Of a DNA stretch of 64,000 nucleotides, positions 10,471 to 19,836 are shown piece after piece. Positions within the stretch are counted from its first letter, which is position 1, and every line of letters begins with the position of its first letter. The notes beneath the pieces were generated by a model. That model did not search any database. It was given only the letters and a program-made list of their open reading frames with translations, and was not told where the DNA came from. A program made the translations under genes and the position numbers. This DNA comes from Lawsonibacter celer (GTDB lineage Bacteria; Bacillota; Clostridia; Oscillospirales; Oscillospiraceae), in NCBI RefSeq assembly GCF_014281125.1, contig NZ_JACOEA010000006.1:92521-156520 (forward strand). The letters run 5' to 3'.

Positions 10471-10920
10471 ACCAAAAGAAACGGTTTTGGATGCCAAAGA
10501 GAAAGCCTGACGTTCATCTGATGTCATTGGCTTCTATGGCCGGCGCGCCCGTCAGGGCGACCTAGGAGCTTCCTTCGGCGGCTCGGCCGCCTTCCCTGGC
10601 ATGGCAGACTCCCGTGAAGAGCGCTTCGCATAGTGTCCGCGCAACTGGGCTGTAAGGTCGTTCAAGCCGCAGGGTTGGACACAACGCATGGCACCTGTGG
10701 CGGCTCGTCTGCACTACGCAGAAGCAGCTGCTCACAGGTTTTGCGGTTTACATGCCGAGGGGCGGCAGCCGGATTTACAGCGGGCGCCGGACCGATACGA
10801 GCCCTGAGGGGTATAGGGTTTGCGGGCCGATTCAGCGGCACCGCCGCCCGACTCCCGGGGTCCAGGGGTCAAAACCCCTGGTTGTTTTCCCCCGGCTTTT
10901 GCAACTCAAAAGCCGGGCCC
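10471..10920 (+). repeat. Intergenic dispersed repeat, copy 2 (decarboxylase-lepA spacer)
   Basis: Diverged copy of 2015-2405 in the same orientation. The main difference is an extra stretch of about 62 bp (roughly 10700-10762). It ends in the same CCCGGCTTTTG hairpin (10890-10917). It occupies most of the 10310-10988 spacer, which otherwise holds only the decarboxylase upstream region and the lepA 3' flank. No convincing coding capacity on either strand. Confidence 0.75.
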
Positions 10921-10988
10921 CCGGAGGGAGCCTCCCCACACGGGAGCGCAAACCTCCGTCTCCTTCGGGGAAGAGGCCCGATAGAACC

Positions 10989-12797
10989 TTACTCCTCGTC
11001 TAGTTTAAGCACTGCCATAAACGCCTCGGTGGGGATCTGAACAGAACCGAGGGAGCGCATCTTCTTTTTGCCCTCCTTCTGCTTTTCCAGCAGCTTTTTC
11101 TTGCGGGTGATGTCGCCGCCGTAGCACTTGGCCAGCACGTCCTTGCGCATGGCCCTGACCGTTTCCCGGGCAATGACCTTGCCGCCGATAGCAGCCTGAA
11201 CGGGCACCTCGAAGAGTTGGCGGGGAATGTTCTCCTTGAGCTTTTCGCACAGCCGGCGGGCCCGGGGATAGGCCTTATCCTTGTGGGCGATAAAGGACAG
11301 GGCGTCCACCTGGTCGCCGTTGAGGAGCATATCCACCTTCACCAGCTCGGAGGGCTCATAGCGGTCCAGCTCGTAGTCCAGGGAGGCGTAGCCCTTGGTG
11401 CGGGCCTTCAGGGTGTCGAAGAAGTCGTAGATGATCTCGCCGATGGGCATGGAGTAGTGCAGCTCGGCCAGGTTGGTGTCCAGGTACTGCATATCCTTAA
11501 AGACGCCCCGGCGCTCCTGACACATGGGCATAATGTTGCCCACATAGTCCGGCGGGGTGACGATGGAGACCTTGGCATAGGGCTCCTCCGCGCTGGCGAT
11601 CACCGCCGGATCCGGGTAGCTGTGGGGATTGTCCACCAGGACCACCGTGCCGTCGGTCTTGGTGATCTTGTAGATGACCGAGGGCAGGGTGGTGATCAGG
11701 TCCAGGTCGAATTCCCGCTCCAGCCGCTCCTGAATGATCTCCATGTGGAGCATGCCCAAAAAGCCGCAGCGGAAGCCGAAGCCCAGGGCGGCGGAGGACT
11801 CGGGCTCAAAGGACAGGGAGGCGTCGTTGAGCTGGAGCTTCTCCAGCGCGTCCCGCAGGTCGGGGTATTTGGAGCCGTCCTCGGTGTAGATGCCGCAGTA
11901 TACCATGGCCCGGGCGGGGCGGTAGCCGGGCAGGGGCTCCGCCGCCGGGGCGGCGGAGCCGGTAACCGTGTCGCCCACCTGGGTGTCCTTCACGTTCTTG
12001 ATGGAGGCGGTAAAGTAGCCCACCTCCCCGGCAATCAGCTCCTCACAGGGATCCAGCCCCAGGGGGAGCAGGTGGCCGCACTCCAGCACCTCGTACTGGG
12101 CGCCCGAGGCCATCATCTTCACCTTCATACCGGTTCGGATAGCGCCCTCCATAACACGGAAGTACACGATTACCCCCCGGTAGGCGTCGTACTGGCTGTC
12201 AAAAATCAGGGCCTTCAGGGGGGCGGAGGGGTCCCCCTTTGGGGCGGGGATGTGGCGGACAATATCCTCCAGGACCGCGTCGATGTTGATCCCCTGCTTG
12301 GCGGAGATTTCAGGGGCGTCCTGGGCGGGCAGGCCGATGATGTTCTCGATCTCATCCTTCACCCGCTGGGGGTCGGCGGCGGGGAGGTCAATCTTGTTGA
12401 TGACCGGACGGATCTCCAGGTCGTGCTCCAGGGCCAGATAGGTGTTGGCCAGGGTCTGGGCCTCAATGCCCTGGGCGGCGTCCACAATGAGCACTGCCCC
12501 CTCACAGGCGGCCAGGGAGCGGCTGACCTCATAGTTGAAGTCCACATGGCCCGGGGTGTCGATGAGGTTGAGCTCATAGACATTACCGTCCTGGGCCTTG
12601 TAGTTGAGCCGGACAGCCCGGGCCTTGATGGTAATGCCCCGCTCTCGCTCCAGGTCCATGTTGTCCAGCAGCTGGGACTCCATTTCCCGCTGGGACACAG
12701 CGTCGCATTTCTCAATCAGCCGGTCAGACAGCGTGGATTTGCCGTGATCAATGTGGGCGATAATGGAAAAGTTGCGGATTTTGGATTGGTCGGTCAT
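10989..12797 (-). CDS. lepA: Elongation factor 4 (LepA)
   Basis: Translational GTPase that back-translocates or remodels stalled ribosomes. 602 aa with G1 [15 protein letters not shown]2 [11 protein letters not shown]3 DTPGHVDF and G4 NKIDLP, the EF4 C-terminal domain and the [10 protein letters not shown] tail. The start is the ATG at 12797, because [13 protein letters not shown] matches the family N-terminus and GGAGGTGCCGACGT precedes it. A truncated copy of its own 5' end lies upstream (12974-13036), and that frame stops in an ATGA overlap with this start. Confidence 0.97.
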
Positions 12798-13036
12798 ACG
12801 TCGGCACCTCCATAGGCAAAGCCACGCTGGGGCCCCGCAAGGCGGGGCGCGGCGAAAAGCCGAGTACAAGTATTTTGGCCGCCGGCCAAAATTTTGGCGC
12901 AGGCGGAATTCACTTCCGCCGAGCAGATGAAATCAAAAGGGGCCCCCGCGCGGCCGGCCGGCCGCGTGGGGAAGGATTTGCCATGATCGATGTGGGCGAT
13001 AATGGAAAAGTTGCGGATTTTGGATTGGTCGGTCAT
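12794..13036 (-). pseudogene. Truncated duplicate of the lepA 5' end
   Basis: Positions 13036-12974 repeat the first 63 bp of lepA with two mismatches, including its own GGAGGTACTCATTT ribosome site. The peptide begins [20 protein letters not shown] and then runs into element A, ending 80 codons later at a TGA that overlaps the real lepA ATG as ATGA. It is probably a by-product of element insertion. The upstream ribosome site is likely the ancestral one, so translation of this leader may feed ribosomes to lepA. Confidence 0.7.
12812..12973 (+). mobile_element. Short structured element A between lepA and its duplicated 5' end
   Basis: About 162 bp with no conserved gene. It holds several hairpins: GCCCCGC/GCGGGGC, TTTTGGCC/GGCCAAAA, CGGAA/TTCCG around TTCAC, and a terminal stem from CCCCCGCGCGGCC to GGCCGCGTGGGG. 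The core near 12904-12955 (CGGAATTCACTTCCG, then AAATCAAAA and GGGGCCCCCG) matches element B at 19346-19468. Both sides are bordered by a 77-bp direct repeat of the lepA start region (12735-12811 and 12974-13050). No transposase is present. The mobility assignment is an inference. Confidence 0.6.
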
Positions 13037-13132
13037 AAATGAGTACCTCCATCGAGTATGAAAGCCCAGTCGGAGCCCGGCGGCGGAGCCAGCTGGGCGA
13101 GGACGGGCGGCGAACGAAGTGAGCCTGCCCGT

Positions 13133-18438: not shown

Positions 18439-19344
18439 ATGCTGAAACGGAGAACCGATCTGGCCGTGGAGGCCACGCAGTTATGGCGGGAGTCCGCCGG
18501 GGAAGAGACCAAGCTGGAGGGGGTGGAGGCCTGGGACGGGGAGCGGGAGGGCTTCCCCACCACTACGGTGCGCATTCTGGACGGCCGGGGCGTGGAGGCC
18601 CTGGGTAAGCCGGAGGGAACCTATGTGACCCTGGACCTGGCGGGGCTGGCCCGGCGGGAGGAGGACGCCTTTGGCCGGGCGGCCCGGGCTCTGGCCGCGG
18701 AGCTGCAGGCTTTGCTGGGACTGCCCGAGGGGGCCAGCGCGCTGGTGGTTGGGCTGGGCAACCGGGCCATTACGCCGGATGCGGTGGGACCGGGCGCGGT
18801 GGACCACACCCTGGTGACCCGGCATCTGGTGGAACAGGTGCCGGAGCACTTTGGACACTTCCGCCCGGTGGCCGCTCTGGCTGCCGGGGTGCTGGGCACC
18901 ACAGGCATGGAGAGCGGGGAGCTGATTGCCGCTGTGGTGGAAAAGATCCGCCCCGCCTGCGTGATTGCGGTGGATGCCCTGGCCTCCCGGAGCCTGAAAC
19001 GGCTGTGTTCCACCGTGCAGCTGACCGACACGGGCATTGTGCCCGGATCCGGGGTGGGCAACGCCCGGGCGGCCCTGAACCGGGAGACCCTGGGGGTGCC
19101 GGTGGCCGCCATCGGGGTGCCCACGGTGGTAGACGCGGCCACCCTGGCCGCCGACGTGCTGGCCGAGGCCGGGCGGGACGACCTGGACCCGGAGGCGCTG
19201 CAGGGGGCGGGAAAGGGGTTGATCGTTACCCCCAAGGACATTGATGCCCGCACCGCCGACATGGCCAAGGTCATCGGCTTTGGGGTAAATCTAGCCCTCC
19301 AGACCGGGCTGACGGCGGAGGACGTGGAGATGCTGCTCAGCTGA
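18439..19344 (+). CDS. gpr: Germination protease (GPR endopeptidase)
   Basis: Spore protease that degrades small acid-soluble proteins during germination, which marks the host as an endospore former. 301 aa, slightly shorter than the usual 320-370. Seen: the propeptide-proximal RTDLAVEA, VGLGNRAITPDAVGP, ALAAGVLGTTGMES, the aspartate-containing VIAVDALASR, and the C-terminal DAATLAADVL. GGGAGG precedes the ATG at 18439. In B. subtilis the gene is expressed in the forespore. Its last 74 bp are duplicated downstream at 19469-19542 across element B. Confidence 0.95.
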   Translation: MLKRRTDLAVEATQLWRESAGEETKLEGVEAWDGEREGFPTTTVRILDGRGVEALGKPEGTYVTLDLAGLARREEDAFGRAARALAAELQALLGLPEGASALVVGLGNRAITPDAVGPGAVDHTLVTRHLVEQVPEHFGHFRPVAALAAGVLGTTGMESGELIAAVVEKIRPACVIAVDALASRSLKRLCSTVQLTDTGIVPGSGVGNARAALNRETLGVPVAAIGVPTVVDAATLAADVLAEAGRDDLDPEALQGAGKGLIVTPKDIDARTADMAKVIGFGVNLALQTGLTAEDVEMLLS

Positions 19345-19345
19345 G

Positions 19346-19468
19346 GCGATGACCTGCGCGTCAGCGCTTCGCCGCGATAAGCGGCGGAGCCCGACGGAAT
19401 TCATTTCCGGCGGGCGATCAAATAAAAGGAGACGGGGCCCCCGTGGAATACGCAGTATTTCATGGGGA
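19346..19468 (+). mobile_element. Short structured element B after gpr
   Basis: About 123 bp between two copies of the gpr 3' end. The core (CGGAATTCATTTCCG, AAATAAAAGG, GGGGCCCCCG) matches element A at 12812-12973. It is followed by a terminal stem that runs from CCCCCGTGGAATAC over GCA to GTATTTCATGGGG. That stem occupies the same position as in element A but has a different sequence, so the structure is conserved rather than the bases. A TTCGCCGC/GCGGCGG hairpin lies near its left end. No coding sequence. Mobility is inferred. Confidence 0.6.
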
Positions 19469-19542
19469 CATCGGCTTTGGGGTAAATCTAGCCCTCCAGA
19501 CCGGGCTGACGGCGGAGGACCTGGAGATGCTGCTCAGCTGAG
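19469..19542 (+). pseudogene. Duplicated 3' end of gpr
   Basis: 73 of 74 bp identical to 19272-19345, the last 24 codons and stop of gpr; the one change is GTG to CTG. It has no start or ribosome site and cannot be expressed as a protein. It abuts the glyS promoter. Confidence 0.85.
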
Positions 19543-19589: not shown

Positions 19590-19836
19590 CAGTATCAGCG
19601 ATGACCGGGAGGAGTAGGCGCCCACACCCAGCGGCAGAGAGGAATCGGACGGTGAGAGATTCCCTGGGGAGACGCCCAAGGCGCCTGTGAGCTGCGGGGC
19701 GGAAATGCCCCGCCGGCGTCCCGCCGTTAGGGGGAGAAGAGTGCGCGGCAGCCAGCCGCGAATTCAGGTGGAACCACGGACAATTTTGTTCGCCCTGAGC
19801 CGAAAACCGGCTCAGGGCGTTTTTTGCGCGCTGAGC
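19590..19836 (+). promoter_or_regulatory. T-box riboswitch controlling glyS
   Basis: The T-box core AGGTGGAACCACGG lies at 19766-19779, followed by a terminator hairpin (19791-19820, arms CGCCCTGAGCCG and CGGCTCAGGGCG) and a T-run. Stem I is seen upstream with the AGAGAG bulge (near 19644) and a long closing stem (GGCGCC near 19618 with GGCGCC near 19681). Uncharged tRNA-Gly would stabilise the antiterminator. tRNA identity is inferred from the downstream gene. Confidence 0.9.

Follow-up and report, generated by a model that had tools for sequence, protein, structure and literature searches.

Small structured elements between duplicated gene ends in Lawsonibacter celer and related bacteria: a possibly self-guided, removable unit

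The mORFs of fungal mitochondria (Allomyces and Glomus atp6, cox2) resemble the unit described here in that they insert at a gene end and bring a C-terminal coding copy which restores the gene, leaving the original end downstream, as far as the excerpted source describes them (PMC3630166). Group I introns carry an internal guide that pairs with the upstream exon (P1) and the downstream exon (P10); as in our unit, a short element sequence is complementary to both sides of the junction and removal would restore the gene (PMC3984707, in excerpt). IS608 picks its target by guide-target pairing and seals the donor precisely (PMC5934647, in excerpt). IS608 (IS200/IS605) and the REP/RAYT systems share with our unit the hairpins, a guide that lies 5' of a hairpin and pairs with the target, a single-strand logic and precise sealing (PMC5934647 and PMC8266576, both in excerpt). 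MITEs and other bacterial small repeats are, like the element studied here, short, dispersed and non-coding (PMC2229807 and PMC10969869, likewise excerpted).

Here we analyse an element, E, that occurs twice in a 64-kb stretch of Lawsonibacter celer DNA, which we call the window, and its relatives in other genomes. The unit that carries E, present in many gut bacteria, appears to be a mobile element of a kind not described before, harmless and removable.

Two copies in the window

The original prediction described a duplication of the start of lepA around a hairpin-rich element. The direct copies are real (79 nt, 91% identity), and the 63-nt lepA coding part of the repeat holds 2 differences, both synonymous. 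The second site, after gpr, also exists, with a repeat of 77 nt (19269-19345 and 19466-19542) that is 97% identical. At both sites the intact gene lies on the left and a truncated copy on the right, as had been claimed. The window contains exactly two occurrences of the core CGGAATTCAYTTCCG, against a chance mean of 0.15 with 2 mismatches allowed; the motif GGGGCCCCCG by itself is without significance there (2 seen, 1.95 expected).

An inverted copy of the target (X', 12-15 nt), which had been overlooked, lies between the left repeat and the element at both sites. Its score at lepA is 12.5, whereas none of 100 shuffles exceeds 8.5. At gpr the score of 9.5 equals the maximum of 100 shuffles, and this X' is therefore convincing only jointly with the other copies. 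The features of the two copies are as follows; T_L and T_R are the left and right gene-end copies.

First copy, at lepA
10989..12797, minus strand: lepA, host gene of the first copy, reading away from the element (ORF and sequence reading; name from the original prediction)
12729..12743, plus strand: X, CAGCGTGGATTTGCC, spanning the junction x1/x2 (between 12734 and 12735)
12735..12813, no strand assigned: T_L, left copy, continuous with the intact gene and including start codon and ribosome-binding site
12815..12829, plus strand: X', inverted copy of X, GGCAAAGCCACGCTG, 14/15 complementary, 80 nt from the junction
12830..12973, plus strand: E, first copy (covariance model, 136.2 bits; among the 14 copies from which the model was built)
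12904..12918, plus strand: core hairpin of E, CGGAATTCACTTCCG
12944..12971, plus strand: terminal hairpin of E, ending in GTGGGG
12974..13052, no strand assigned: T_R, right copy with its own start codon and ribosome-binding site

Second copy, at gpr
18439..19344, plus strand: gpr, host gene of the second copy, reading toward the element (name from the original prediction)
19268..19279, plus strand: X, AGGTCATCGGCT
19269..19345, plus strand: T_L, 3' end with stop codon
19344..19355, plus strand: X', inverted copy, AGGCGATGACCT, 11/12, marginal taken alone
19356..19465, plus strand: E, second copy, a divergent subtype with one hairpin fewer (model match 19351-19469, 41.5 bits)
19466..19542, plus strand: T_R, second 3'-end copy, stop codon retained

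Directly 3' of the element at gpr, and upstream of an apparent glycyl-tRNA synthetase gene, lies a T-box leader (19592-19800, 98.3 bits), the only RNA-family match in the window at gathering threshold. A separate repeat pair of about 330 nt (2089-2422 and 10549-10936, blocks 78-88% identical) is unrelated to E. Similarity searches returned one phage-collection record and one plasmid record, the search with the gpr copy matched no record, and a scan of viral contigs for the pattern gave 0 matches. MT838853.1 (L001), filed unverified as 'Bacteriophage sp.', is most likely a bacterial chromosome contig, judging by its lepA start and E copy. NZ_AP023416.1 (L026) is an 861-kb Vescimonas 'plasmid' with two E copies in the fetched stretch, at truB and infB; because infB, rbfA, truB and ribF are on it, it looks like a second chromosome.

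Anatomy of the family, the ruler and the gene ends

Scanning for the core plus tail in one genome per species found 24 loci under the labels Flavonifractor, Pseudoflavonifractor, Oscillibacter, Intestinimonas, Dysosmobacter, Papillibacter, unclassified Oscillospiraceae, Clostridia(les) or 'uncultured bacterium'; Pseudoflavonifractor capillosus An827 and Oscillibacter valericigenes An860 are among the carriers. We built a covariance model of E (about 140 nt) from 14 copies, that at lepA included; 19 of the 38 pairs show two-sided compensatory change in this 14-copy alignment. The model matches all 17 source genomes, which are of the Oscillospiraceae type, with 7-45 matches each. Under stricter filters and with at most 21 candidates per genome, it matches 63 of 150 genomes from the family of one source genome, several of them once; a gpr relative is encoded in 117/150. 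Matches are mostly 100-165 nt long; G187 has 69 and G093 has 56, and the complete genome G171 has none. On the top strand, where the core is read, G-U outnumbers A-C by 146 to 47 in structure-fitted alignments; this bias suggests a single-stranded role for that strand of E.

For reading with flanks, 100 regions were taken from the match list ranked by score; in these and the earlier loci the matches of the model numbered 110 and 71. We kept 154 copies, leaving out matches shorter than 100 nt, redundant instances of a copy and those too close to an end, and well-kept copies are favoured among them because the picks came from the top of the ranked list.

The copies follow the plan W-x1/x2-T_L-f-X'-E-x2-T_R-R, the slash marking the junction. 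The idea that a flank duplication of defined length is part of the element is borne out in relatives: 129 of the 154 copies have one (direct repeat score at least 18), compared with 2/154 when flanks are swapped, so that cores lacking it are the minority (25/154). The right repeat begins within 1 nt of the modelled end of E in 83/129. Directly 5' of E, between it and the left repeat, X' is an inverted copy of 9-21 nt of host sequence across the left boundary and is complementary to the junction; X typically spans -6 to +9 around it. X' reaches a score of at least 9 in 98/129, with 4/129 in the swapped-junction null, and the remaining 31/129 fall below that score; some of the copies lacking duplication or X' are degraded, and others are possibly a different subtype near tRNA genes. 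Among 77 distinct targets, 74% have G at -3 of the left copy.

The copies at L021-L023, L291, L298 and L299 end in a GGGTG...AACCC hairpin or terminator-like sequence, some lie beside apparent tRNA genes (by eye), and the duplication is weak or absent in several; they are possibly a separate subtype. L003 and L008 hold E copies without convincing duplication in an apparent ParA-type or conjugative module.

X' keeps its distance from the junction. Of 97 unique loops with an X' score of at least 9, 69 place the start of X' at 70-88 nt from the junction, 6 below 66 nt, 2 at 90-91 nt and 20 at 93 nt or more, and most of the longest loops contain terminator-like hairpins. Where the loop holds a hairpin of -20 kcal/mol or stronger, X' lies at 98 nt or beyond in 15 of 16 cases (98-116 nt), the sixteenth being at 82; without such a hairpin this happens in 1 of 81, namely L011, which has an imperfect X'. 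Once the hairpin is subtracted, the spread among the 92 loops of at least 60 nt falls to 7.2 nt, from 11.2 nt. Since strong hairpins push X' outward, the ruler is a single-strand length with hairpins left out. In minimum-energy folds of 80 loops, X' pairs with X in 62, with the right-hand x2 in 9 and elsewhere in 9.

The presence of X' and the hairpin-lengthened distance rule out a simple insertion with a duplicated target of about 75 bp, and the duplication does differ from ordinary target-site duplications, as first suggested. The accompanying idea of fixed-distance copying fits in part: the distance is fixed, but as about 70-80 nt of single strand minus hairpins and not as about 75 bp of duplex.

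For 52 of 103 elements the set includes a second genome with the orthologous site. At 99 element-positions where the targets differ, X' is complementary to its own target in 79, to the other's in 8 and to neither in 12; X' thus follows its own host's sequence between species.

Gene direction was called by codon usage trained on the window, replacing an earlier call by open-frame length that was unreliable. Among the 129 copies, the gene reads toward E in 99 and away from it in 14, with 16 unassigned. Of the repeats in these 99, 51 end no more than 3 nt from the stop codon, where shuffled stops predict 10; 28 run past it by more than 6 nt, and 8 fall short by more than 6 nt. Forty-seven copies have at least 12 nt from stop to X'. 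An ungapped comparison found 11 of them duplicated through to X', 29 alike in the coding part only (of which 4, with coding identity below 0.4, are unreliable because they are out of register; L120, for example, has a 113-nt repeat), 4 intermediate and 3 arrays. The 11 copies with duplication all the way to X' make it probable that the duplication originally extended that far, its untranslated part having diverged afterwards. Copying that recognises the stop codon, which the sharp repeat end had brought to mind, was rejected on account of the later divergence that these 11 copies indicate.

T_L and T_R, compared over 1740 codons in 88 elements, show 250 synonymous and 57 non-synonymous differences. 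The share of synonymous differences is 81%, compared with 21% expected from random changes of the same codons, which rules out a plain decaying duplication. Because the differences are mainly synonymous, both copies are, as judged from this pattern, under selection as coding sequence. The stop is retained in T_R in 76/88, and 12/88 have none at the same place. Among the 14 elements whose gene reads away from E, 13 were compared and give 31/19 synonymous/non-synonymous differences, or 30/5 in 12 elements once L005:968, judged misframed, is removed. Since selection on both copies holds in both gene directions, splicing of the host mRNA alone is not the whole reason. T_R is not always needed, as some copies have decayed (typA in L217, the copy in L262, and the 12 without stop). 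At 1 of 6 sites compared (L340/L317), the T_L and T_R of one genome change together, so recombination shapes them as well. The original account was incomplete in that it contained neither X' nor selection on both gene-end copies; that selection would not follow from a mere copying scar by itself.

Recurrent sites, gain and loss, and orientation

Several species share the position of E in lepA, and infB carries it repeatedly; a further recurrent host gene is presumably glutamate dehydrogenase. Host genes other than lepA and gpr, among them those we take to be efp, infB and typA, are tentatively named from their protein ends.

G006 (Pseudoflavonifractor capillosus An827) and G187 are mostly 94-98% identical at shared loci. 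Out of 42 G006 loci, not all of them distinct sites or individually checked, 32 have a counterpart among the E loci of G187 (90% or better over 200 bp or longer) and 10 do not, among the part of the G187 matches that was fetched. At two shared sites the repeating unit, U, is single in one genome and tandem in the other (L278 vs L253/L258; L284 vs L267/L268). Across six shared sites, T_L shows 19 synonymous and 3 non-synonymous changes and T_R 14 and 12, 9 of these 12 at one site.

Empty sites in relatives, which the original prediction had raised, exist in one precise case. At efp, G187 carries E, with 40 nt of T identical; G006, a genome about 97% identical, has T once, followed by G187's post-T_R sequence with few changes, and neither X' nor E. 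The X' of G187, GCGGGTGTCGAT, is the exact inverse of the empty-site sequence in G006. G178 retains at efp the apparent first hairpin of E. At infB, T_L of G187 ends in EEVER and a degraded copy in G174 in EEIER, whereas T_R and the E-free G006 and G178 have EQIEV; the T_L tail, X' and E therefore form one lineage. The front of T_L matches T_R of its own genome. Among 27 typA loci read by eye, G006 and G178 have E, G187 has it half replaced and most lack it, and the apparent E remnants in several relatives (by eye) are imprecise losses. In G187 (L216, typA start), half of E is swapped for repeat-like sequence, and the first hairpins and X' remain beside the gene.

E follows the direction of the gene in 99 of 113 assigned copies. 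In four complete genomes it does so in 11 of 13 replication-opposed and 24 of 26 co-directional assigned copies; this set covers 47 of 98 listed matches, 8 of them without assignment, deliberately includes the opposed ones of two genomes, and assumes the replication terminus at the opposite pole. Because E follows the gene even where this opposes replication, replication direction is not decisive, and lagging-strand targeting was rejected as the cause of orientation.

Capture by a cognate enzyme, considered in the original prediction, is not confirmed. Among 26 genomes, many of them drafts (25 with E plus the E-free G171), Y1_Tnp (PF01797) has no match in 12, which include G006 (45 E matches) and G001, G104 and G148 (each at least 20), and RVT_1 (PF00078) has none in 10, which include G002, G006 and G016 (22-45 each). 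Both are matched in G171. Neither a reverse transcriptase nor a Y1 transposase is thus supported as an obligatory partner. E is found in 1 of 8 fetched Y1-bearing regions of 2-3 kb, the single case being L449 (G017), where a RAYT-like Y1 ORF lies about 75 bp from an E. The Y1 matches at L449-L454 are weak or divergent, in ORFs of 94-183 aa that look like REP-associated transposases by eye; some of these proteins have apparent in-frame palindromic repeats that encode stretches like RRGDPCGRP (by eye).

A proposed unit, its rivals and the known systems

The anatomy, the ruler, the tracking by X', selection on both copies, the precise empty site and the tandem U are the observations from which our proposal starts. 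We give a nearly even chance to the reading that the copies form a family of small non-coding mobile elements, each within a precisely removable unit guided by X'. This unit, U, would be the segment x2-T_L-f-X'-E, lying between the junction x1/x2 and the original gene end x2-T_R. E would be a conserved structure working single-stranded, with the top strand as sense. X' would pair in cis with the junction across a single-stranded loop of about 70 nt, bring the hairpins of E to the junction, and act as a guide or splint that sets where U is cut in and out. T_L would be a spare gene end with which the host gene works while U is present, and T_R would serve once U is lost. A new site would be born by duplication from the junction up to X', most simply via fold-back copying of a single strand, a step read from a minority of copies, given that 29 of the 47 are alike in the coding part only and 4 are intermediate. 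Later, the untranslated part, f, would diverge, and loss, active regain and selection would maintain both coding copies and X'.

More tentatively, and somewhat short of an even chance, the family may be a new class of self-guided mobile element without a gene of its own, which writes its guide X' from the site it has entered, places it by measuring off some 75 nt along a single strand, and brings a spare gene end with it, so that important genes such as lepA, infB and efp stay intact both when it enters and when it leaves. A keyword search of the open literature, over titles and abstract openings, found no such element described. If the proposal is true, some 140 nt and no protein would suffice for a harmless parasite of important genes, with the gene restored, the target kept and a guide copied from the target carried along; a target-templated guide would be of interest for programmable insertion. 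The site-tracking X' and the single-strand ruler make the mechanism directly testable.

The strongest rival, which we consider less likely than our own reading, is a passive scar: fold-back replication with template switching at birth, then ordinary DNA processes, with X' lacking any guide function. Recombination between T_L and T_R would delete or multiply the unit, and deletions would expose T_R to selection; such deletions between the repeats could indeed account by themselves for the selection on T_R. Frequent recombination is expected of direct repeats 40-85 nt long that lie about 150-240 nt apart, and both the arrays that differ from single copies between close genomes and the concerted change in L340/L317 agree with this. 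Template-switch correction of the imperfect inverted repeat would keep X' complementary, so that the tracking could arise from it instead of from guide use; homogenisation of inverted repeats via template switching is described (PMC8604942 and PMC8794818, in excerpt). However, a passive scar gives no account of a single-stranded loop length that is kept while f diverges, nor of a conserved structured E dispersed to tens of sites. Loops of about 70 nt are also long for quasi-palindrome correction. Even on this reading, both gene-end copies would be selected and single-strand copying with a fixed loop would recur.

The other rivals are weaker candidates. Were U a self-splicing type of intron removed from mRNA, X' would be the internal guide pairing both exons (P1/P10 of group I) and T_L would guard against failed splicing. 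The complementarity of X' to the ligated exon junction is an internal-guide layout (PMC3984707, in excerpt), and selection on T_R, stop codon included, the G-U bias and an orientation that follows the gene (99/113, and 11/13 of those opposing replication) point the same way. This reading is nevertheless improbable: copies of E that lie antisense to the gene have a T_R just as conserved (30/5), 13 of 14 antisense copies also have X' 75-85 nt from the junction, the direction bias is explicable by selection alone, E is short, some U have a terminator-like hairpin before E, and the five matches that four E+ loci gave at E<=1 include no group I/II model. We rate as equally improbable a single-strand DNA transposition by Y1 (TnpA or REP-associated), with the hairpins of E as recognised ends and X' as an extended guide. 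IS608 sets a precedent in its guide-target pairing and precise donor sealing (PMC5934647, in excerpt), X' lies directly 5' of the hairpins as a guide should, the single-strand ruler fits, and the weak Y1 matches include the one beside E at L449; against these stand the 12/26 genomes without a Y1_Tnp match, E-rich ones included (many drafts), the presence of E in just 1/8 Y1 regions, and an orientation that follows the gene and not replication. Movement of a retro-element by a reverse transcriptase is very improbable. It would explain the RNA-like covariation and the G-U bias, and a single-strand template would explain the ruler, but no RVT_1 match was found in 10/26 genomes, E-rich drafts among them. 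Least probable by our estimate is an ordinary MITE whose transposase leaves long target-site duplications. Some insertion sequences do make long duplications (IS1549/IS1634), and E is short, dispersed, without room for an enzyme gene and flanked by a long duplication; yet no inverted pair of at least 12 nt joins the ends of E in the two window copies, the ruler reads a single-stranded length, and the inverted segment X' is target-derived and different at each site, which contradicts a MITE.

Set beside the known systems, the proposed unit U agrees with the full definition of none of the tested families. As in fungal mORFs, the element-borne C-terminal copy is in phase with the gene and the native end lies downstream. 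The fungal mORFs encode an endonuclease, for which E is too short, and their inserted and native ends differ strongly, whereas T_L is mostly close to T_R of the same genome (PMC3630166, in excerpt, for the fungal cases); the inverted target copy X' and the single-strand ruler belong to the E family. A guide complementary across the junction, as in group I introns, is present in 98/129, with X at about -6 to +9, and a catalytic core (P3-P9) has no counterpart among the five matches at the four E+ loci; here, moreover, the unspliced form already encodes the gene end, copies also lie antisense to the gene and E has only about 140 nt.

X' provides by its complementarity the guide 5' of a hairpin that is typical of Y1 elements. 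The IS608 guide has 4 nt and is owned by the element, whereas X' has 9-21 nt and is derived from the target (PMC5934647, in excerpt, for IS608). A spare gene end is carried here, and Y1 enzymes went undetected in 12/26 genomes (many drafts). IS200/IS605 and REP elements insert without target duplication, whereas 129/154 copies of E lie between direct repeats, a test that is weaker if T_L is counted as part of the unit. Unlike MITEs, E showed no terminal inverted repeats of its own at the two window copies (pairs of at least 12 nt). It shares with them a target-site duplication (129/154), which is far longer than usual, is measured as single strand, and consists of a long piece of a host gene, both copies of which are under selection as judged from their differences.
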